A stretch of DNA of 64,000 nt, from the NCBI GenBank assembly GCA_003278425.1, contig QCFE01000004.1, positions 33,488 to 97,487 on the forward strand, written 5' to 3'. The notes under the pieces are model-generated. The model did no database searches. It had not been told where the DNA came from and was given only the letters and a program-made list of their open reading frames with translations. The translations under genes were made by a program, and so were the position numbers. This DNA comes from Prochlorococcus sp. AG-363-B11. Its GTDB lineage: Bacteria; Cyanobacteriota; Cyanobacteriia; PCC-6307; Cyanobiaceae. Each line of letters begins with the position of its first letter. The stretch's first letter is position 1. Below are positions 683-12,062 of this stretch, piece after piece.

Positions 683-925
683 ATCCCCTTTCTCGCTGTT
701 TTTGAAAGCATCCACTATTTGAGGGAGAATAAAAGCAAGGTTGAATGCTGACTGTATGAGAATCCAAAAGAAATCTCATTCTAGCAAAATACTAGCAAGC
801 CTAACAACCTCCAAACCCCTTACCACAACTGAAATATGACTGAAATTAACTACTGGCTAATGAAAAGTGAGCTTACAGCTCTCGACTAGGTTTTCAGCGA
901 ACCGAGAAGATTTACCCAAACTTTT
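683..925 (+). repeat. EVE-5'-end repeat, copy A (upstream region + truncated EVE mini-ORF 836-889 + shared tail)
   Basis: atcccctttctcgctgtttttgaaag...ttctagcaaaatactagcaagcctaa...ATGACTGAAATTAACTACTGGCTAATGAAAAGTGAG then ctaggttttcagcgaaccgagaagatttacccaaac. Encodes MTEINYWLMKSELTALD*. Confidence 0.75.
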
Positions 926-927
926 TA

Positions 928-1047
928 ATGCCTCAACAAGAAGAAAAAACTCAGCCAAAGAAAGAAGACTCTAAGGAGAAAGCTGTGGAATCTCTATTGA
1001 ACTATGAGTGCGAAGATGATGATGATGGCTCAGATTGGGAAACATAA
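928..1047 (+). CDS. possible 39-aa highly charged small protein
   Basis: MPQQEEKTQPKKEDSKEKAVESLLNYECEDDDDGSDWET*, directly after the repeat A tail; below the ORF-track size cutoff. Confidence 0.3.
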   Translation: MPQQEEKTQPKKEDSKEKAVESLLNYECEDDDDGSDWET

Positions 1048-1251
1048 AGGTTAAAGGTCATAGTCACCAAACAAATGAAATTATCATCTCTTCAGCAATA
1101 CGGGATCGTCACTACAAATTAAGTGACTCTAATTTAGTCTATAATATTAATAAACCTAGGCAATTATAATAACAATTGGATCAATACTGCAAAGAAATAA
1201 AAGATAGAAAGTATAATGAGAATTATAGATTTTGAATAAATACAGAATTTA

Positions 1252-1662
1252 ATGAATTCATTTATTTCCAAGCGAGTATTGTCAGCCGGTATTACATGTC
1301 TGGCAGTAGTAACAAATAATCCCAGTTATGCAGCTGAAGAGTTCAATAATCTTACATGTATAGTCGGGCTTAAGACAGAACAGTTATGTAATGTTGCCAT
1401 ACATAAAAGAGCAATGATTTTTAAGTTCCCAACAGGGAGAACCCATATCGTTAAGTTGCATAAAATAGGAAAGTGGGGATATACAAATCAAAGTAAATTA
1501 AAAGGATTTATATTCACTTGGGTTAAACATAGACATATCTTTGGTATATCTTATAAGAATATCGATGGTGACAATGAGCAGATGGCAATAGCCTTTAATG
1601 ATAGTCAATATGTTCAGCCATTTCAATTCTTTTTAGAGGAAGTTGGTCCAATGTCTGATTAA
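1252..1662 (+). CDS. hypothetical secreted protein
   Basis: 136-aa ORF with N-terminal signal-peptide-like segment ending ...NNPSYAAEE. Confidence 0.5.
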   Translation: MNSFISKRVLSAGITCLAVVTNNPSYAAEEFNNLTCIVGLKTEQLCNVAIHKRAMIFKFPTGRTHIVKLHKIGKWGYTNQSKLKGFIFTWVKHRHIFGISYKNIDGDNEQMAIAFNDSQYVQPFQFFLEEVGPMSD

Positions 1663-1665
1663 ATT

Positions 1666-2433
1666 CTAGTTTATCCTGTCAGCTAAATATTCAACACCTT
1701 TATAAAGTGCATCTGTCATTGCTGCTCTAGTTCCAGCATCCATTCCTCCCATATTAAAAGATGGATTGCTCATGTCGTAACTATACCCTCTTTCCTTTTT
1801 AGTTGTATTGACATCTCCAGTAAATGTTCTAGTTGCGACTATGTCCTCTTCAGGGATACTTATCACATCAAATTTAATTGTTACATTAGATGATTTAGTC
1901 GTTTCACTCCTACCACTTTTATTAGCAAAAAGTCCGACATAAGGAATATAAGCTGCACCTCCAGGACCCTTAGTATTCTTACTTGTAACAGAATCTTTAT
2001 TCAAAACAACAGCTCTAACAATATATTTTGCCTTTAATCTTTTAGAAGCAATGATTAATTCATTCAGATATAAATCTCCACTTAAGTCTTTCTTTTCCTT
2101 ACTTCCACCTCCTAAACCAAATGGATTCAACCAAGATGAATTAACAACCTTTTGAAGCTCTTTATTTACTTTAAACCAGGAAACTGTCTTAGCTCCGCCA
2201 TCTCTGATCAATTGATTAAAAACTTCCGTACAAAATTCATTTTGCGTTGGAACACCCATTACTGCATTCCCACTTTTATCTAAGCAAGGCATTAATACAA
2301 CAGCTGAAGAAGTCGCAAAGGTTACGTTTCTAATTTTATCTTGATCTGAATCTGCTTCTGCTAAAGCAACTGGGGAAAAACATGCCCCAGTAATGGCAGC
2401 AGATAAACCTAATGCTAATGTTTTCATATTCAT
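1666..2433 (-). CDS. hypothetical secreted protein, possibly CsgG-like
   Basis: 255-aa ORF; signal peptide MNMKTLALGLSAAITGACFSPVALA; pattern resembling CsgG-type proteins (VVLMPCLDKSGNA...TEVFNQLI...LKAKYIVRAVV). Family assignment tentative. Confidence 0.6.
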   Translation of the reverse strand: MNMKTLALGLSAAITGACFSPVALAEADSDQDKIRNVTFATSSAVVLMPCLDKSGNAVMGVPTQNEFCTEVFNQLIRDGGAKTVSWFKVNKELQKVVNSSWLNPFGLGGGSKEKKDLSGDLYLNELIIASKRLKAKYIVRAVVLNKDSVTSKNTKGPGGAAYIPYVGLFANKSGRSETTKSSNVTIKFDVISIPEEDIVATRTFTGDVNTTKKERGYSYDMSNPSFNMGGMDAGTRAAMTDALYKGVEYLADRIN

Positions 2434-2448
2434 TGAAGAAAATCTATA

Positions 2449-2928
2449 GTGGCTAGAAGTTTGAGAGGAATCCTACCATTTGGCATTATTGCTGCATGCA
2501 CATGTTTCTGCGATTATGCCCTTGCATTCAAAGTCTTTGAGCCGAAGATAAGAGATTATGGAAAATATGATGCGTTATGTGCTTCATCAGGTGGGTTCGA
2601 TGGATGCTCTGTATATATAGAAAGCAAAAAAATAAACTCCATCTCAATTGATGGTGCGAGGGAACTGGACTTATGCCATGAAAAAGCTCGGATTGGATAT
2701 AGATCAAATCCATCATCTCCTTATAAAAGAATCTCTAGTGAAAATAAGAGTCTTGAAGAAATTGCCAGCAAAGAAAGAGGAATAGACCATGATTTCCTTT
2801 TTGCTGTACCAAAACCAGGCACTTCTAGAAGAGATACATTAATAGTTCGATATAAAAACCATAAAGTCGCGATTGATTTTGCTGGGATAGTGGATCTCAC
2901 TTTAAATACATGTGAGAATATGTTCTAA
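2449..2928 (+). CDS. hypothetical secreted protein
   Basis: 159-aa ORF, GTG start, N-terminal hydrophobic leader ending ...DYALA. Confidence 0.5.
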   Translation: MARSLRGILPFGIIAACTCFCDYALAFKVFEPKIRDYGKYDALCASSGGFDGCSVYIESKKINSISIDGARELDLCHEKARIGYRSNPSSPYKRISSENKSLEEIASKERGIDHDFLFAVPKPGTSRRDTLIVRYKNHKVAIDFAGIVDLTLNTCENMF

Positions 2929-2999
2929 GGAAGCTGTTACTTTAATGATATTTTTCAGACAAAACCACTACATCTATATCCTCAGAGGTAAATGTTTCT

Positions 3000-3662
3000 A
3001 TGACTAAAGTCTCTGCAAGGTTAATTAAAATCTCAATAGCCATCTCCTTCATTTTTACTTCCATGCAATCTAGTGTTGCTGGTATTTATGAAGCCTTATG
3101 TGATGAATCGAATTGCAAAATAAAGCTTAGTGCAAAAGGGTTCTCCGGTCCGGAAGGGTTTATGCCTGCTCATCGCATAGTTCAGTGGTACCAAGGAGGC
3201 GGAGCAGAGATAAATAAATCAACTGCTGCTGCTGGAGCTGGAGCTGGGGCAATAGGCGGCGCTGTTGTTGGCGGCTTAGCAACTTGCTGGACAGTCGTTG
3301 CTTGTGTACCAGGAATAATTGCTGGAGGATCTGCAGGCGGAATAAGTGGTTCTACATTAGGAAATTCTGCAGACCTTTACTTCACTGTTCTGGGATATAA
3401 CCAAAAAGGTGAAAAGATCCTACAAACTTTTAATTTTATTAATGAAAGACCAGCCTCTAAAATAATTCAAGAGTTAAGTATAGTAACTGGACTAAAAATG
3501 GGTGAACAAAGGTCTGTTGATGAAATAAAAAAGATAGATAATTTAATTAATAGTAAAGAATCCTCAGAAGTAACTTCTAATAACAAAAATAAGAATTCAA
3601 TACTTAATAAAAAGACTCCATTTACAAAAACTGAAAGCTACTTGTATCCTAATAAAATATAG
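3000..3662 (+). CDS. hypothetical secreted protein with glycine-zipper segment
   Basis: 220-aa ORF; leader ...SMQSSVAG; central AAAGAGAGAIGGAVVGGLA...GIIAGGSAGGISGSTLG. Confidence 0.6.
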   Translation: MTKVSARLIKISIAISFIFTSMQSSVAGIYEALCDESNCKIKLSAKGFSGPEGFMPAHRIVQWYQGGGAEINKSTAAAGAGAGAIGGAVVGGLATCWTVVACVPGIIAGGSAGGISGSTLGNSADLYFTVLGYNQKGEKILQTFNFINERPASKIIQELSIVTGLKMGEQRSVDEIKKIDNLINSKESSEVTSNNKNKNSILNKKTPFTKTESYLYPNKI

Positions 3663-3770
3663 TAAATTAGAGACTGGCTTTTATAACGCCTAGTGCTTCT
3701 TCTGAAGTTTACAATCACCTGATCCCATTTAAGAGATAATAAAAAAGGAAAACAATATCCAAATGTATTT

Positions 3771-4028
3771 CATATCCCCTTTCTAGCAGTTTTTGAAAGT
3801 TACTTCATTTTGAGCAAGAATAGAGAAGAAATCTTAGGCATTTTGTAGGTTTTAAAACCCTTAAAAGCCTCATTCTAGCAAAAATTTTCGCTGAGATCCC
3901 TTGGTATGACTGACATTCGCTACTGGCTAATGAACACTGGCCTTTGAAGCTAGGACTACGTTCTCAGTGATTCGTTTCGTTTTACCCAAACTTTACCCAA
4001 ACTTTCTCTTACTTATTTCTCTTTACTT
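3771..4028 (+). repeat. EVE-5'-end repeat, copy B (mini-ORF 3906-3947 + shared tail)
   Basis: atatcccctttctagcagtttttgaaag...cattttgagcaagaatagagaagaaat...ttttcgctgagatcccttggtATGACTGACATTCGCTACTGGCTAATGAACACTGG then gctaggactacgttctcag...tttacccaaactttacccaaactttctcttacttatttctctttact. Upstream half matches copy D; tail matches copy C. Confidence 0.8.
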
Positions 4029-4258
4029 AAGACAGATCGGAAGGGACAGATATTTGGCATGCATCTACCATCTAAACTCATAAAGCATTCTTTTAATTAC
4101 TTGTTAATTTGAAGGACAAAATGACAGCTACGAACCCTAAACAGGACAACTAGACAATCTACAAAAACTAGGCTAAATATAAAATGAGTCTTATCAAACT
4201 GGTCTAACGTCAAATTCCTCTTAGGTATTGTTTTCGCCGGGACAGGTGCCTGATAAAT

Positions 4259-4846
4259 ATGACAACCAAAAAAAAAGATAAAGAAGTAAGTGCTCTCAAT
4301 GATTACTTAGTCACTATCTCAGGATCTATGATTGTGATAGTGACTATTGGTTTATCTTTAAAAATAGCAACTCCTAGTTTCTTAAATTTGATGAACAAAA
4401 CAAGAGAATTAGAAGGAGCTGCAGCAGTTAACACATTTATAAAAGCTGGTAAAAGGTGTCATTTATATAACAACAATTTGCCTAGGAATGCCGGGGAATT
4501 ATCACAATGCGTCTCAATCCCTGCATGTCAATGGGCTGCCCATATTAAAGGAACACAAATATGTAAAGAATGGGAGCCATTAAAACTGGGGAGAAACAAT
4601 CCGAACACCCGTCAGTGGAATAGCCCAAGTGGTCTTTTTAATATCACTATGAATGTAAGTTGGCCAAGATTACTTATCAGAGCTATTCCCTATTTCAGCA
4701 ACACATCTGGAACTTCCGGATGCTATAACTCAAAAACTGGTTCTATAGAGATACGTTCATTTAAACCAAACCCTTCTTTTTACCGCTCAGGAAAACGTAG
4801 GGTTAGGATTGGTATTGATTCAGATGTCCCAAGACTTCAATGTTAA
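4259..4846 (+). CDS. pilin-like protein
   Basis: 195 aa; single N-terminal hydrophobic helix; Cys-rich; C-terminal SGCYNSKTGSIEI similar to SGCYNSQTGE in ORF 5433-6170. Confidence 0.6.
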   Translation: MTTKKKDKEVSALNDYLVTISGSMIVIVTIGLSLKIATPSFLNLMNKTRELEGAAAVNTFIKAGKRCHLYNNNLPRNAGELSQCVSIPACQWAAHIKGTQICKEWEPLKLGRNNPNTRQWNSPSGLFNITMNVSWPRLLIRAIPYFSNTSGTSGCYNSKTGSIEIRSFKPNPSFYRSGKRRVRIGIDSDVPRLQC

Positions 4847-4913
4847 CAATAAGCAATTATGAAAAATTGTCTGAATTGAATGGATCATCTAAAAAGATAT
4901 AAGGACTAGAAAA

Positions 4914-5141
4914 TCAGCATGGGAGTGTTAGGCGGTAGAGCTTGGCTTCATTAGTTGATCCCTTTGGAAGAATAGAAATTACTGGACAATAGGCACTAAG
5001 GACAAAGGCAGTATTTGGATCACCACTGGGAATATCCATCCAACCTTTCTTCATCTCTCCATCAAGAACAATGCGGAAATACTTTCTAGGTGAACTTCGA
5101 CCGAATGCCCCATCGCAAAGGCAATATTTGAGATCGGGAAA
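4914..5141 (-). pseudogene. gene remnant (open frame without plausible start)
   Basis: Minus-strand open stretch ...LKYCLCDGAFGRSSPRKYFRIVLDGEMKKGWMDIPSGDPNTAFVLSAYCPVISILPKGSTNEAKLYRLTLPC*, preceded in frame by TAG next to repeat C. Confidence 0.4.
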
Positions 5142-5388
5142 CTAGGCTCTAATCCCAGTAAAATACTAGCAAGCCTAAAAACGTATAAAATCTCTCTAAC
5201 TTCCTCTCTCGCAATGGCTGAAAAAGATATTAAGTACTGGCTAATGAAAAGTGAGCCATAAGTGATACCAAGGGATCTCAGGGATTCGCAAAAATCTATT
5301 CTAGCAAAATTCTAGCAAGCTAGAACTACGTTCTCAGCGAACCGTCGAGATTTACCCAAACTTTCTCTTACTTATTTCTCTTTACTTT
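5140..5388 (+). repeat. EVE-5'-end repeat, copy C (mini-ORF 5214-5261 + inverted segment + shared tail)
   Basis: agtaaaatactagcaagcctaaaaac (as copy A) ... ATGGCTGAAAAAGATATTAAGTACTGGCTAATGAAAAGTGAGCCATAA (MAEKDIKYWLMKSEP*), then ataccaagggatctcag (inverse of B/D upstream), then gctagaactacgttctcagcgaaccgtcgagatttacccaaactttctcttacttatttctctttact. Confidence 0.8.
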
Positions 5389-5432
5389 TGGTCAACAATT
5401 TTTAATCGATCCTTTGATTCATTTAAGACACA

Positions 5433-6170
5433 ATGAAAAGATCTAAATATCAAAAAATACTCGCACGGATCCTATTTATTATAGCTCCATTTCTAGCTGT
5501 CTTTTCATTAGCCTTTGCTGTTAGCTGGGCCGAAAGTTTTATTTTATTATTTTCTTTAGCTGTTTGGTTATATCTTTTCTCCTGGAAATTACCTCGCATG
5601 ACATGGAGAAATATTGAAAAAAAATGGAACTATAGAAAATTCATTTTTTACTCTGCTACTTGGTGGTGCATCATCATTCCTTTCTCAGTGGTCATCCTAG
5701 TCTTATTGAGTCCGTGTTTTGGCAATAGTAGATGTGATACTGACAAAGCTAAGCAAAAAGAACCATCAACTCTTATAGCTTCTTATATAAAAGCTTCTCA
5801 GGCTTATTACACAGAATATGGAACCATTGCAAAATCATCTAAAGATCTAGGGCAATACATGACTGTTACTGGATGCAAGAAAAACAACCATAATTTCTGC
5901 AAAACAGCACGTACAGTCAACTACTCGAATTCCAACAGCACTACTTGGTATACACCTAGCGGCTATTACGAAATAACGATGCAAGCCAAAGAAAAAGGAA
6001 ATATATTTATCGCCAAGCCAAGTGGTAAATATTCAAAAAAAGGTTTAGGTGTTTCTGGTTGCTACAACTCTCAGACAGGTGAAACAGACGTACTGGAAAT
6101 GACTACTAAAGGTAGAAACGTTACTCTTCCTGATTGCTCAGGTAATTCTTTGCCATCAGAGAAGAACTAA
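5433..6170 (+). CDS. membrane-anchored pilin-like protein (type IV pilin-like G/H-type domain)
   Basis: 245 aa; several N-terminal TM segments, then SYIKASQAYYTEYGTIAKSSKDLG...VTGC typical of cyanobacterial pilin-like proteins. Confidence 0.65.
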   Translation: MKRSKYQKILARILFIIAPFLAVFSLAFAVSWAESFILLFSLAVWLYLFSWKLPRMTWRNIEKKWNYRKFIFYSATWWCIIIPFSVVILVLLSPCFGNSRCDTDKAKQKEPSTLIASYIKASQAYYTEYGTIAKSSKDLGQYMTVTGCKKNNHNFCKTARTVNYSNSNSTTWYTPSGYYEITMQAKEKGNIFIAKPSGKYSKKGLGVSGCYNSQTGETDVLEMTTKGRNVTLPDCSGNSLPSEKN

Positions 6171-6183
6171 TCAGCCTTTAATA

Positions 6184-6350
6184 TTCCCTTTCTATCTATT
6201 TCTGAAAGTCGCTTCATTTTGAGCAAGAATAGAGAAGAAATTATAGGTATTTGGTGGGTTTGAGTACCCAAAAAAGCCTAATTCTAGCAACAATTTTCGC
6301 TGAGATCCCTTGGTATGACTAACGTTCAGTGGTGGCTAATGAAGAGTGAG
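6184..6350 (+). repeat. EVE-5'-end repeat, copy D (continuous with the intact EVE gene)
   Basis: ttccctttctatctatttctgaaag...cattttgagcaagaatagagaagaaat...ttttcgctgagatcccttggtATGACTAACGTTCAGTGGTGGCTAATGAAGAGTGAGCCC; matches copy B upstream half. Confidence 0.8.
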
Positions 6351-6782
6351 CCCAATGTTTATAGCATAGACGACCTAAGAAATGAAGGCACAACCCTTTG
6401 GGATGGAATTAGGAACTATCAAGCGAGAAATTTCATGAGAGAAATGCAAATAGGGGACCAAGTTTTCTTTTATCATTCAAACTGCAAGCCACCTGGGATA
6501 ACTGGACTAATGGAAGTCATAGAAACTAATCTAATTGATCCGACCCAATTTGATAATAAGTCAAACTATTTTGACCAAAAATCAAAAAAAGAAAACCCAC
6601 GTTGGGATTGTGCAAAGCTTAAATATGTAAGAAAATTCAGTAAGTTCCTTAGCCTAAAAGAAATCAGTCAAATCTTTGATGAAAGTGAATTGATTCTAAT
6701 TAGAAAAGGCAATCGATTATCTATAATGCCAATAATGTCAAATATAGCGCTACAACTTTTGAAAACTCTAGATAACTCCTAA
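6315..6782 (+). CDS. EVE domain-containing protein
   Basis: WWLMKSEPNVYSIDDL...LWDGIRNYQARNFMREMQIGDQVFFYHSNCKPPGITG are hallmark EVE motifs. Confidence 0.95.
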   Translation: MTNVQWWLMKSEPNVYSIDDLRNEGTTLWDGIRNYQARNFMREMQIGDQVFFYHSNCKPPGITGLMEVIETNLIDPTQFDNKSNYFDQKSKKENPRWDCAKLKYVRKFSKFLSLKEISQIFDESELILIRKGNRLSIMPIMSNIALQLLKTLDNS

Positions 6783-6841
6783 AAAATAAATAGTTTTATT
6801 AAATGAATAAGATTGTCTATGCTTTTATCAACTTAATCAAC

Positions 6842-7120
6842 TTATTCCACTTCAATTAATGAAGATAATCCAAACATATTACCTATATATAATCTAGAAA
6901 TTGACCTTGATTCAACTCCATTCTGCATCAGGAAGCCTGCTAAAGCAGCCTGGACTAATCTATACTGATCCCAATTGGGATAACGTTCTATAAAATCATT
7001 CATTGCCTTACTCAAAGAAAGCGGCAAGTGAGCTTGAAAACTAATTATAGAATCTTCTGACTGAATAACATTAGTCAAATCTTCTTCTTCAGATTGCTTG
7101 TTGAATTGGTAGCCTTGCAT
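6842..7120 (-). CDS. DUF2811 domain-containing protein
   Basis: ISFQAHLPLSLSKAMNDFIERYPNWDQYRLVQAALAGFLMQNG pattern of the cyanobacterial DUF2811 family. Confidence 0.8.
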   Translation of the reverse strand: MQGYQFNKQSEEEDLTNVIQSEDSIISFQAHLPLSLSKAMNDFIERYPNWDQYRLVQAALAGFLMQNGVESRSISRLYIGNMFGLSSLIEVE

Positions 7121-7424
7121 GATTTAAAAATTTTTCTTTACAACCAGTTCCTCATATCAAAAGAGCAACGTCAAGGGAGCCATAAAAAACCAGTCTCGTC
7201 GATTCTTAAAACAAGACAAACTGCTAGAAAAGCCTTCTTCACATTTCAACAGGGTGGACTTATAGCAAATTTATTAACAAGGTCGCTAAATATTAACTTT
7301 TCACGCTTTTCCACAGCTTCTTATGTTTAGGCCTTTAGAGAAGTGAATCTTGTGGAAAGAATGTGCAATGAGTCTATAGATTTATCTAAATACTGGAAAT
7401 ATTTAAGAATACAATCACATTTTT

Positions 7425-7799
7425 TTACTTGGAATCCCACATTGTTCTCATTGCGGCAGTTAAAGCTTTAGCACTTGAGACAGGCCAAAAAAGTTCTAAT
7501 CCTCTAATGTTTTCATCTGCTTCTGAAAGAATGACCTTTAAGCTCCAATGCTCCCTCGTTCCTTCTATACAAGCCCACCATTGATTGCGTTCCATTTCTA
7601 GACATATTTCCTCTTCAGGCATTAACTGTTTTTTCGCCTTCCCATGCTCATCAATTAGATCAAAAACAATAGCGCACAACGACTCCCATTCGGTATGCAA
7701 AAGTTCTACTGCACAATGGTTTGCCCCTATTAAAACCGAAAATTTCTTCTTAGAAATATCCCTTTCAAGTCTCCATCCAATCCCCTCATATCGAATCAC
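7425..7799 (-). CDS. DUF1818 family protein
   Basis: GIGWRLERD...[19 protein letters not shown] typical of the cyanobacterial DUF1818 family next to rpoZ. Confidence 0.75.
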
Positions 7800-8035
7800 C
7801 CTGGCAACAAATCAGGCTGGTCCTGCTCATCACTAAGTTCAATAATTGATCTTTGTACAGGCTTTACAGATGATTCTTCTAATAATCCATCAAAGTCATC
7901 AAAGCGCCTCTGCTTTGCTCTAAAAGCAATCCGAACAGTAGTTAAATATCTATTGCTAGCTTGACGAATAAGACTTTCGCCACGCTTTGCAAGATCTTGA
8001 GAGTCAAATCCAGTCTTAATCACACAAATCTTCAA
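7796..8035 (-). CDS. rpoZ: DNA-directed RNA polymerase omega subunit
   Basis: 79 aa, [32 protein letters not shown], cyanobacterial RpoZ. Confidence 0.85.
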
Positions 8036-8109
8036 ATAGTTTATTTAGTTTAATAGATAAGCTCCCAAAGAAGTCAAAATAAAAGAAATAGAAAACAATG
8101 AAAAATTAA

Positions 8110-9720
8110 TTGGACCTCTCAATTGACAACAATGTCAAAACGCTAGCCGGTACTCTTGCTATTGACCTTGGGAGCACAACAACTGTTGTTGCTTTCCAAG
8201 GAGAAAATCAACTAAATGTTGAGTTACTTGAATTGCCCTCCATTTGCAGAGCTCCTGGGGAAGTACCAAGCCTTATATGGAAATCATCAGTTGCAGGAGA
8301 ACCATCTTTTTTGTTCGGCCAGGAAGTAAAGAATCTTGCTCTTGACGACAATAAAGAAAAAGCTCTGATTTCTGATTTTAAACGCTGGATAGGTGCTCCA
8401 AAAAATCTAGTTCCTGAAAATTTTGTCTTACCACCAGAAGAAGCTGGTGAACTTTTAATCAAAGAAATCTGGAAGAGGATACCGCCCGAATTGGAAGTCA
8501 AGAAACTTGTTTTATCCGCTCCAGTTGAAAGCTATAAAAAGTATAGAGAATGGCTGCATTCTGTTTGTAGTGATTTAAACGTTAAAGAAATAGCCTTAGT
8601 GGATGAACCTACTGCGGCAGCATTTGGTGCAGGGCTCCCAGGAGGTTCAAAATTATTAGTAGTTGATATAGGAGGAAGCACAATAGATATGTCAATGGTC
8701 CTCCTTGAAGGGGGCGAAGGAGAAGCTGAACCAATTGCACAATTAATTCGCTTTGGTGGTGAAGACCTAGAAGGGAAAAGTAAGCAGATTATTCGTGGTG
8801 CAAAAGTTCTTGGGAAAGCAGGCCTTCGCTTAGGGGGGAGAGATTTTGACAGATGGATACTTGATTATCTTCATCCAGATTCGCCACAATCTGAATTGCT
8901 CCTTAATACTGCAGAGACATTAAAATGCAGGCTCAGCGATATCAAAATCAATAAAAACCAAAAACTTACTGAAGAGATTTCTATTGAATCTCAAGAAGAA
9001 CCAATCAAATTTGGTTTAAGGAGAATTGAATTAGAAGATCTACTTAAAGAAAAAGGGTTATTCAAAAGTATTTCCAAATTATTAGAACAAACTCTTGCAA
9101 GAGGGAGAGCAAATGGGTGTGAAATCGAAGATCTTACAGGGGTAGTAATTGTTGGAGGTGGTTCTCAGATACCATCCATTAAAAACTGCCTTGTCGAGAA
9201 AGTTGGGAAAGACAAGTTACTTGTTCCACCACCTATAGAAGCTGTAGCAATTGGCGCACTAAAATTAACTCCAGGAGTAATGGTTAGGGATGTTTTAAAC
9301 AGAGGGGTTTCATTACGATATTGGGATCTAAAGACAAATCAGCATAATTGGCATCCTCTCTTCTTTTCTGGGCAACCATGGCCAACAATTAAACCTCTAG
9401 AAATTATTATCAGTGCAAATACAAAAAGCCAATTAGAAGTTGAATTGATAATTGCTGACAATGAAATGAATCAAATTCAAGAAATTATTTATGAGAATGG
9501 AATACCTGTTATCAAAGATAACCAAACAACTCAATTAACAAATATATTGCCTTGGGAAATTGATCCAATAATGGTCAAATTAGATCAACCTGGAGAGATA
9601 GGTTCAGATTGTTTAAAAGTACAATTTTCTATCAATGAATCTTGCCAACTCTATTTAGAAGCTTTTGACCTCAGAAGTAAGAATAAGGTAATACAAAAAA
9701 CAATTGGATCACTTAGATAA
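8110..9720 (+). CDS. Hsp70 family protein (DnaK-like)
   Basis: AIDLGSTTTVVAF, VDEPTAAAFGAG, VVDIGGSTIDMSM, VVIVGGGSQIPSI; short divergent C-terminus; TTG start. Confidence 0.9.
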   Translation: MDLSIDNNVKTLAGTLAIDLGSTTTVVAFQGENQLNVELLELPSICRAPGEVPSLIWKSSVAGEPSFLFGQEVKNLALDDNKEKALISDFKRWIGAPKNLVPENFVLPPEEAGELLIKEIWKRIPPELEVKKLVLSAPVESYKKYREWLHSVCSDLNVKEIALVDEPTAAAFGAGLPGGSKLLVVDIGGSTIDMSMVLLEGGEGEAEPIAQLIRFGGEDLEGKSKQIIRGAKVLGKAGLRLGGRDFDRWILDYLHPDSPQSELLLNTAETLKCRLSDIKINKNQKLTEEISIESQEEPIKFGLRRIELEDLLKEKGLFKSISKLLEQTLARGRANGCEIEDLTGVVIVGGGSQIPSIKNCLVEKVGKDKLLVPPPIEAVAIGALKLTPGVMVRDVLNRGVSLRYWDLKTNQHNWHPLFFSGQPWPTIKPLEIIISANTKSQLEVELIIADNEMNQIQEIIYENGIPVIKDNQTTQLTNILPWEIDPIMVKLDQPGEIGSDCLKVQFSINESCQLYLEAFDLRSKNKVIQKTIGSLR

Positions 9721-9734
9721 GATACCTTTTCATC

Positions 9735-10295
9735 TTATTTTGCATCCCCAAGGTAAACCCCTTCTTCCCCATCAATTTGATTTAGTCTCAACTCAATAGT
9801 TTCTGTTCTCTTAGTAGGGACCTTCCTACCAAAGAAGTCAGGCTGTATAGGTAGCTCTCTATGTCCGCTTCTATCAACCATTACCAAAAGCATTACTTTC
9901 TGAGGTCTCCCCCATGCTTGAAGTGATTCAATCGCTGCACGAACTGTTCTTCCAGTAAATATCACATCATCAACCAAAAGCACTTGTCGACCGTCCAAGT
10001 TTGATGGCAAGGAAGTGGGAGGAGCCATCCTTGTACCTAATCGAACAAGATCATCTCTATAAAAGGTAGGATCAATTATACCTTGTTCAATTTGATGACC
10101 TGTTTTCTCCATTAGTTGACTGGCCAAAACTTCTGCAAGTTGAATACCCCTAGTTGGTATACCTAAAAGCAATAAGTCCTTGGTATGTGAAATACTTTCA
10201 AGAATTTGCGAAGAAAGTCTTGTTAGAGTTCTAGCCAACTCTTCCTTAGAAAGTATTTCCAATCGTTGAGGAATAGCCGGATCAGTCATTGGCAA
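9735..10295 (-). CDS. pyrR: bifunctional pyr operon regulator/uracil phosphoribosyltransferase
   Basis: GIPTRGIQLAEVLA, VLLVDDVIFTGRTVRAA PRPP loop. Confidence 0.95.
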   Translation of the reverse strand: MPMTDPAIPQRLEILSKEELARTLTRLSSQILESISHTKDLLLLGIPTRGIQLAEVLASQLMEKTGHQIEQGIIDPTFYRDDLVRLGTRMAPPTSLPSNLDGRQVLLVDDVIFTGRTVRAAIESLQAWGRPQKVMLLVMVDRSGHRELPIQPDFFGRKVPTKRTETIELRLNQIDGEEGVYLGDAK

Positions 10296-10439
10296 TTGAT
10301 TTGAGCGTCATTTTATGCAGTTTTGGAGATTTGATTCAATTTGGAAAAGCTAACGGAAGTTAATACAAATAATGCCCATGACCAACAAAGAAGTAATTTG
10401 AGGACAAAGCTTACAAAAAACAGGGCTTCTATCCTACAC

Positions 10440-12062
10440 ATGCCGAACATTCGTTCCGCCCATTCAACCAAATCAGGTCATGTAGCCCCTGTTGTTTTAA
10501 CCATCCTTGATGGTTGGGGTCATAGTGAAGAGACTAATAATAATGCAATTCGTGAAGCTTATACACCTGTTATGGATTCCTTATGGAAGGCATACCCGCA
10601 TACACTTATACAAGCAAGTGGTGCAGATGTAGGTTTACCTGATAATCAAATGGGTAATTCCGAAGTAGGTCATCTAACAATTGGAGCAGGGCGGATAATC
10701 CAACAAGAGCTGGTAAGAATTAGCAATACAATAAAACTTAAAAAACTTGACCAAATTCCTAATTTGGCAAGTTGTGCAGAAGATTTAATAAAAAACAGTA
10801 AAACACTGCATTTAATAGGGCTATGTTCAGATGGTGGAGTACATAGTCATATAAGTCACTTATGTGGCCTTTTAGAGTGGGCTAAAGACAAAGGAATAAA
10901 AAAAGTTGCCATCCATGCTTTCACCGATGGTAGAGATACCCCTGCAAAAAGCTCGTTGCAATATTTAAAGTTGATTAATGAGAAGATTGAATCACTAGGA
11001 ATTGGAGAACTTGCAAGTTTATGTGGAAGATATTGGTCCATGGATCGAGACAATAGATGGGAAAGAATCGAAAAGGCATATGACTTATTAACCAATCCTG
11101 AATTCCCTATAAGCAACTGCACTAGTAATGAAATTATATCTAATAGCTATGAAGAAAATATCACTGATGAGTTTCTAGAACCTGTACGCCTTACCCCTTC
11201 TTATCTTCAAGAAGGAGATGGGTTAATAATGTTCAATTTTCGTCCTGATAGAGCTCGCCAGTTGATTAAATCAATAACGATTAAAAATTTTGATGATTTC
11301 CAACGTAAGCATCATCCAAAAGTAAAAACCGTTACTTTTACACAATATGAAGCTGGTTTGCCAGTTTCAGTAGCTTTCCCACCAGAGTCTCTTGACAATC
11401 TATTGGGTCAAGTGATTTCAGAAAATCAACTACTTCAATACAGGACTGCGGAAACTGAAAAGTATCCACATGTTACGTACTTCTTTAATGGTGGAATTGA
11501 GAAGCCTTTACCTGGAGAACATCGCCATCTGGTTCCTTCCCCAAGAGTAGCTACTTATGATATCTCACCAGAGATGTCAGCTGAAAAACTAACAAGAAGT
11601 TGTCAAGAAGCAATTGAAAGTGGTATTTATTCTCTAATAGTTATTAACTATGCAAATCCAGATATGGTTGGTCATACAGGTATTCATGAGGCAACTAAAA
11701 AAGCTATTAATACTGTTGATAATTGTATTGGCAGAATTCTAAACTCGACAGGTAAAATGCATGGCACCCTTTTAATAACAGCAGACCATGGGAATGCTGA
11801 ATTAATGAAAGGCCCAGATGGAGAACCCTGGACTGCACACACAACAAACCCAGTACCTGTAATTCTAATAGAAGGGGAAGGAAGAAAAATAGCCGGTGAA
11901 GGGAATTCTCTCCGATTAAGAGAGGATGGGGGGCTCGCAGATATAGCTCCTACACTTCTTCAATTACTATCATTAGAGAAACCTAAAGCAATGACAGGTT
12001 CATCTTTGATTAAAACCATTGATACTTCGTCTAAGACTTCCTTTGTTCCTCAACCTGCCTAA
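10440..12062 (+). CDS. gpmI: 2,3-bisphosphoglycerate-independent phosphoglycerate mutase
   Basis: [38 protein letters not shown]; start taken at in-frame ATG 10440 rather than 10341. Confidence 0.95.

Follow-up and report, generated by a model that had tools for sequence, protein, structure and literature searches.

Why should the first codons of a single gene recur several times in front of the intact gene, each time followed by the same tail? The question is raised by a 64,000-nt stretch of Prochlorococcus sp. AG-363-B11 (GenBank assembly GCA_003278425.1, contig QCFE01000004.1, positions 33,488 to 97,487), here called the window and corresponding to G000:C4:33488-97487 in our genome set, where three displaced starts of an EVE-domain gene (hereafter EVE) precede the complete gene. 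Very probably, small integrative elements of the tyrosine-recombinase type use the 5' end of EVE as their attachment site, and each tail would be the left end of one of them. Assembly G000 comprises 1.49 Mb and is 82% complete; its relatives are Prochlorococcus, and the genus set used below consists of 14 genomes (G001, 1,751,080 bp).

The EVE core and the element ends

A 14-bp core, TACTGGCTAATGAA, which encodes the EVE residues YWLMK, was found at window positions 851, 3921 and 5235. At all three junctions the displaced first EVE codons end in this core and the tails then follow. By chance, a single strand of the window should hold about 0.0004 exact copies, and the minus strand has zero. 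The intact gene carries the core variant TGGTGGCTAATGAA at 6330. These data support each truncated EVE start as an attL-like junction and TACTGGCTAATGAA as the putative crossover. The features concerned are:

836 to 864 (+): junction A, attL-like, displaced EVE start (ATG...) with core 851-864
865 to 924 (+): tail A, left end of element A-B, single TTTACCCAAAC unit at 911-921
3906 to 3934 (+): junction B, displaced EVE start with core 3921-3934
3935 to 4034 (+): tail B, left end of element B-C, full tandem TTTACCCAAAC TTTACCCAAAC
5214 to 5248 (+): junction C, displaced EVE start with core 5235-5248
5249 to 5388 (+): tail C, composite left end
6315 to 6782 (+): intact EVE-domain gene (PF01878, E-value 1.9e-52), putative integration target

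As the original prediction had it, a conserved tail follows each of the three truncated EVE starts and is missing after the intact copy, D: TTTACCCAAAC was detected at 911, 3981, 3992 and 5351, and not after D. The tandem that had been noted in tail B is a complete pair there (3981-4002, 60 bp from the core start) and only there, A and C retaining one unit. Tail C joins a TTCTAGCAA-type left end (5249-5320, arm pair 5299-5320) to a TTTACCCAAAC-type left end (5321-5388) with one unit only (5351-5361), and this composite recurs upstream at G000:C4:32207 with 93% identity over 162 nt. Composite ends of this kind show that ordinary recombination, too, reshuffles the array.

The tail pattern TTYTCAGCGAANCGNNNAGATTTACYCAAAC was scanned over the 14 genus genomes with at most three mismatches. 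All 14 matches lie after an EVE core, at a spacing of 40 bp (12 matches) or 96 bp (two matches, both composite ends in G000, one being tail C), whereas the reversed pattern, used as a control, gave 0 matches in the same genomes. The outcome that was to overturn the prediction, a tail unrelated to EVE junctions, therefore did not arise. The sequences support the tail as the left end (P' arm, part of attL) of an integrated mobile element, as had been proposed; its boundary, by contrast, is the core itself and not the 'ctag' from which the tail had been drawn, so that the start first given lies 20-90 nt inside the element. Tail A is a case in point: it matches the left end at G010@2587 with 99.2% identity over 257 bp past the core, and the upstream neighbours are unrelated.

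Between genomes, sequence identity turns on or off exactly at the core. Among 19 non-redundant pairs of non-EVE sites with a shared left end, identity was ~35% up to -20, 66% at -10 and 96% at the core, and 83-98% past it. Conversely, 17 pairs with a shared right end were 81-96% identical up to the core and ~30% beyond +20. Some pairs have TTTTGG and TACTGG, respectively, before an identical left end, so the crossover lies to the right of those bases. Empty sites were also found: in L083, a left flank of 3.6 kb (95.8% identical) runs straight into the EVE body (96.6% identical), whereas in L055 two elements lie between them, and further occupied/empty pairs are L100/L120, L068/L117, L052/L062, L093/L119 and L061/L079. 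A core common to attL and attR, precise boundaries and empty sites, as expected of integrative elements, are thus all present. Separately, inverted TCGCTGAGATCCCTTGGTAT copies flank the core at several sites (L011 11733-11754; window 5253-5272, 3889-3912 and 6298-6321), possibly as an additional site bound by an accessory protein or by a recombinase.

Tandem arm repeats and the recombinase IntA

Arm repeats were defined as tandem repeats of period 11 with at least 9 of 11 positions identical. They occur in 57% of the flanks before the core and 29% of those after it, where randomly chosen places gave 0.9% and 2.1%, respectively. Relative to the core, they begin between -65 and -60 on one side and between +60 and +63 on the other. 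Their sequences vary widely among elements (CATCCACACA, CATTCCAAC, TTTACCCAAAC, TTCTAGCAA, ATACCAGCA, TTCACGAT and others), but the left and right arm pairs of one element match in 33 of 63 cases, against 9.9 under permutation (maximum 20 in 2000 permutations), whereas a match is seen in 3 of 53 cases where the ends of different elements abut at a shared site. Putative arm-type repeats therefore stand on both sides of attP, as in integrative elements. In the window, the TTCTAGCAAAA/TACTAGCAAGC pair before junction A agrees at 10 of 11 positions with the TTCTAGCAA pair at the left end of its element (G000 11708 -> 13839 in L011); the TTCTAGCAA arm type is thus found at both ends of the element that ends at junction A. 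The tandem in tail B, originally likened to arm-type recombinase sites, belongs to a class of repeats that is significant, fixed in position and matched at both element ends, and that also co-varies with the N-terminus of a recombinase.

This recombinase, IntA, is a tyrosine recombinase of ~517 residues carried by some elements (PHROG integrase, E-value 2.6e-14); of 400 genomes in the family, 65 have it. At ~15 loci in several genera, the intA frame begins 31-132 bp past the core, and the arm pair lies between the two or overlaps the frame start; the suggested search for tails beside integrases thus recovered the same architecture between the EVE core and a tyrosine recombinase. An element-borne recombinase adjoins the attachment site at these intA loci, not in the three elements of the window. 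Full-length elements measure 5.6-12 kb, and their cargo includes, for example, a DnaB-like helicase, a ribbon-helix-helix protein and a PrsW-type protease. No tRNA gene was found beside intA in the loci scanned, and no large serine recombinase in the genus.

Where integrases are 94-97% identical in residues 200-517 yet share only 40-51% identity over the first 75 aligned residues, their arm repeats differ, whereas integrases with >90% identical N-termini have the same arm repeat. Repeat similarity tracks the N-terminus (Spearman 0.67) more than the remainder (0.38), pairwise values that are non-independent and whose p-values are unusable. Near-identical catalytic domains combined with divergent N-termini and different repeats thus point to arm sites that are read by the IntA N-terminus. 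The first 68 residues are predicted, with modest confidence, as four strands and a helix, a fold that would be expected of an arm-binding domain and is suggestive only; no Pfam match was obtained for an N-terminal arm domain. A fold search with the IntA model was set aside because the prediction was too poor.

Some further features of the recombinases were seen by eye. IntA (L126 1198-2748 and its relatives, A1) lacks the usual first catalytic arginine, with TGMSPEEICKMKW for TGxR, and has Tyr in place of His in box II (YSLRSTF); both departures are conserved in the family. Distant relatives in Synechococcus-like genomes (L217-L226, L236) are located neither at EVE nor at tRNA genes, and in some of them a period-11 repeat lies close to where the gene begins. 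Another recombinase family, intB, is located beside tRNA-Pro(tgg) in L230, L231, L232 and L233, and its elements have their own period-11 tandem repeats (TTGTCACTCG x2, CGGTTGTCACTCGTTTGTCACTCG and TATTTGTTGGC x2), so the period-11 arm design may be common to this class.

Arrays, proposed mechanism and alternatives

Every one of the 14 genus genomes has the EVE-start core. Nine islands were read at length; they contain 5-16 sites each, with a median spacing of 2.6 kb, and in all nine the sites form an array upstream of a single intact EVE, on one strand only. With the strict core, two complete genomes, G001 and G002, have 14 and 19 copies, respectively, over ~110-150 kb before EVE (14 of 14 and 18 of 19 on the EVE strand), exact copies being near EVE and poorer ones more distant. 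On contig C4, the array goes on leftward of the window with seven further core copies on the same strand, giving ten remnant sites plus EVE across ~35 kb on a single strand. High-light Prochlorococcus show the same array pattern, and neither recognisable arm repeats nor an array was found at Synechococcus EVE genes. Judged from sequence, dozens of foreign gene cassettes accumulate at one spot in EVE, genome after genome.

In Synechococcus, the gene murD is a neighbour of EVE. Taken as a left anchor, it was located ~101 kb (G001) and ~141 kb (G002) away from EVE, and the interval, 90-130 kb, is scrambled. Sites that can be recognised occupy only the EVE-proximal 35-45 kb, and an assignment of the whole murD-EVE interval to EVE elements was therefore rejected. 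Between G001:C1:1348-1439 kb and G002:C1:807-938 kb, shared island proteins are often 91-99% identical, compared with ~56-88% for flanking core proteins, which suggests that cassettes were exchanged recently.

The elements in the window contain the following features:

779 to 800 (+): right-end tandem arms of the element before junction A, TTCTAGCAAAA/TACTAGCAAGC, period 11
865 to 3934: element A-B, 3.07 kb, integrase-less, with ORFs (open reading frames) 1252-1662 (+), 1666-2433 (-), 2449-2928 (+) and 3000-3662 (+)
3935 to 5248: element B-C, 1.3 kb, one prepilin-like ORF, 4259-4846 (+)
5249 to 6343: element C-D, 1.1 kb, one ORF, 5433-6170 (+)
6280 to 6343 (+): right end of element C-D, attR-like

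The present EVE start comes from the right end of element C-D, which comprises a degenerate TTCTAGCAA arm, a CGCTGAGATCCC segment, the EVE ATG and the core variant (6330-6343). ORF 1666-2433 of element A-B has a weak CsgG match, and the ORF of element B-C resembles a type IV prepilin-like ORF at L011 6053-6688. Prepilin-like genes are recurrent cargo (window 4259-4846 and 5433-6170; L011 6053-6688 and 12193-12999; an element in G008, in which a further ORF is similar to a PilB/GspE-type ATPase), and accessory pili may be common cargo of EVE arrays. Reading of the translations also suggests type I restriction-modification genes in one element and a pilus-type ATPase in another; the ORFs of the EVE-targeted L208 (G358) element (2679-11410) read, by that means only, like a complete type I system (HsdM, HsdS and HsdR). 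No tRNA or tmRNA gene is present in the window.

In the mechanism that we propose, integration would cross over inside TACTGGCTAATGAA at the 5' end of EVE in a lambda-like manner. The old EVE start would remain as the left half of attL, and the right end of the element would bring a new upstream region, the ATG and the first codons, leaving EVE intact (attR). Repeated use of the restored site would stack elements head to tail to the left of EVE, the newest beside the gene. The tandem 11-bp repeats ~60 bp on either side of the core would be arm-type sites for the N-terminal domain of IntA, while its catalytic half would read the common core. Elements without intA, whether they lost it or never had it and including those in the window, would be moved in trans by an arm-matched IntA or be decaying relics. 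We infer these protein-DNA contacts, excision and mobilisation in trans from sequence patterns, the last because arm types are shared with integrase-less cassettes. Going one step further, we consider it somewhat probable that a modular arm code operates, in which EVE integrases keep the catalytic and core-binding half and swap the N-terminal half together with the adjacent arm repeats. Many incompatible families would then share one target, integrase-less cassettes would follow the integrase that reads their arms, and EVE would be the integron-like hub of a hypervariable Prochlorococcus island of 90-130 kb.

Several observations weigh against integration by IntA. The protein falls below the cut-off for PF00589 (23 against 27 bits), and its structure prediction is poor (predicted local distance difference test score, pLDDT, 51). 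Its family was not found in the assembled part of the 82% complete G000, and the window contains no integrase gene. No relative of IntA was found in viral contigs or GenBank phage records; likewise, the search for the tail in phages that had been suggested with the original prediction found neither tail nor core in IMG/VR viral contigs. In addition, the two ends do not match in 30 of 63 elements, which needs missed junctions or later recombination.

Three other explanations were weighed. Tandem duplication with RecA-mediated unequal recombination of the EVE-upstream region would dispense with a site-specific recombinase. Some units are indeed paralogous (L011 12402-12701 and 18741-19040, 91%), and the composite ends common to C and C4:32207 demonstrate that ordinary or illegitimate recombination happens here, but adjacent units are mostly unrelated and the EVE start alone is ever duplicated. 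Moreover, one unit can stand at 85-100% identity beside different neighbours across species, the change from related to unrelated sequence falls at the 14-bp core and is not distributed along the flanks, and element ends carry matched arm repeats and a recombinase gene. The matched arms, the identity step at the core and the occupied/empty pairs refute duplication as the main process, and we give it practically no chance. It is also very unlikely that the tails and tandem repeats are regulatory DNA, that is, promoters or repressor operators of the downstream genes. The repeats do lie directly upstream of intA and other genes, and arm sites often overlap integrase promoters; yet they also precede cargo genes that are unrelated, they recur across the core in the region upstream of EVE, the pairs at opposite ends of an element correspond over distances of 1-12 kb, and both period and core distance are fixed.

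An integron-like system, in which a conserved chromosomal tyrosine recombinase of ~387 residues next to cobO acts in trans on all cassettes, would suit the predominance of integrase-less cassettes of single-gene size (median 2.6 kb). This recombinase is present in 14 of 14 genomes, even those without intA such as G000 and G001, and was seen beside a cobO-like gene at L156 1447-2598 (-), L147 1438-2607 (-) and equivalent loci. It is, however, remote from EVE (in G001, C1:500 kb compared with 1,439 kb), and by itself it leaves unexplained why there are many arm types, why intA adjoins the core and why the arms vary together with the IntA N-terminus. We regard its action on all cassettes as very improbable and retain integration of IntA-type elements at EVE.

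Relation to known integrative systems

Tyrosine-recombinase elements, 5'-end protein targets, arm-type sites and Prochlorococcus cargo islands are known. The EVE target, the mostly integrase-less array and the joint exchange of arm and N-terminus were not found in the open literature, a search with the original tycheposon and island papers outside its scope. The repeat PRE1, associated with Coleman et al. 2006, is reportedly 48 bp long and confined to a Prochlorococcus genomic island; the EVE-start segment is of similar length, and the literature on PRE1 and on Prochlorococcus attachment sites offered nothing usable. EVE elements would explain, down to their exact ends, how a large hypervariable island next to a protein-coding gene grows in Prochlorococcus, which no other photosynthetic organism exceeds in abundance. 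The sequence rule of a core plus matched 11-bp arm pairs allows every cassette to be delimited automatically, and naturally occurring recombinases whose differences are concentrated in the presumed arm-reading domain, the rest being nearly identical, offer a system in which to test arm specificity directly and to develop new tools for site-specific integration.

The tycheposons, which reportedly exist in both integrase-bearing and integrase-less forms, resemble EVE elements in host group, in their tyrosine recombinase and in carrying cargo into hypervariable islands that build up next to a fixed target. Tycheposons of Prochlorococcus measure 4-200 kb and are tied to seven tRNA genes (PMC10872708). 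EVE elements share with them the combination of tyrosine recombinase and cargo, whereas their target is EVE, the 5' end of a protein gene, rather than one of the seven tRNA genes; the tRNA-Pro recombinases (L230-L233, intB) form a family separate from IntA. In the dusA islands, the present 5' sequence of dusA derives from the island, and an att sequence of ~21 bp is conserved (PMC4482086). In EVE, too, the 5' end of a conserved protein gene is replaced by element sequence, and EVE elements may thus work like dusA-type islands, a likeness that concerns the mode of integration. The target differs, and the consulted parts of PMC4482086 do not describe arrays of many integrase-less cassettes or an arm-repeat code.

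Tn916 has 11-bp DR2 arm repeats. The attP sites of lambda, Tn916 and ICEMlSym consist of a core with short arm sites on both sides that are read by a separate integrase N-terminal domain, the design that is proposed here for EVE elements too. IntS of ICEMlSym has five arm sites (PMC11963761). EVE elements differ from these systems in having exactly two tandem 11-bp units per side at a fixed distance, with many sequence types around one core. Chromosomal integrons, finally, share with EVE arrays the long, one-way series of small cassettes at one site, most of them without a recombinase of their own. Neither an attC structure nor IntI was seen in EVE arrays, though no search was aimed at either; unlike in integrons, the ends of EVE cassettes are starts of the target gene, the recombinase lies inside some of the cassettes, and the array grows at the target gene.

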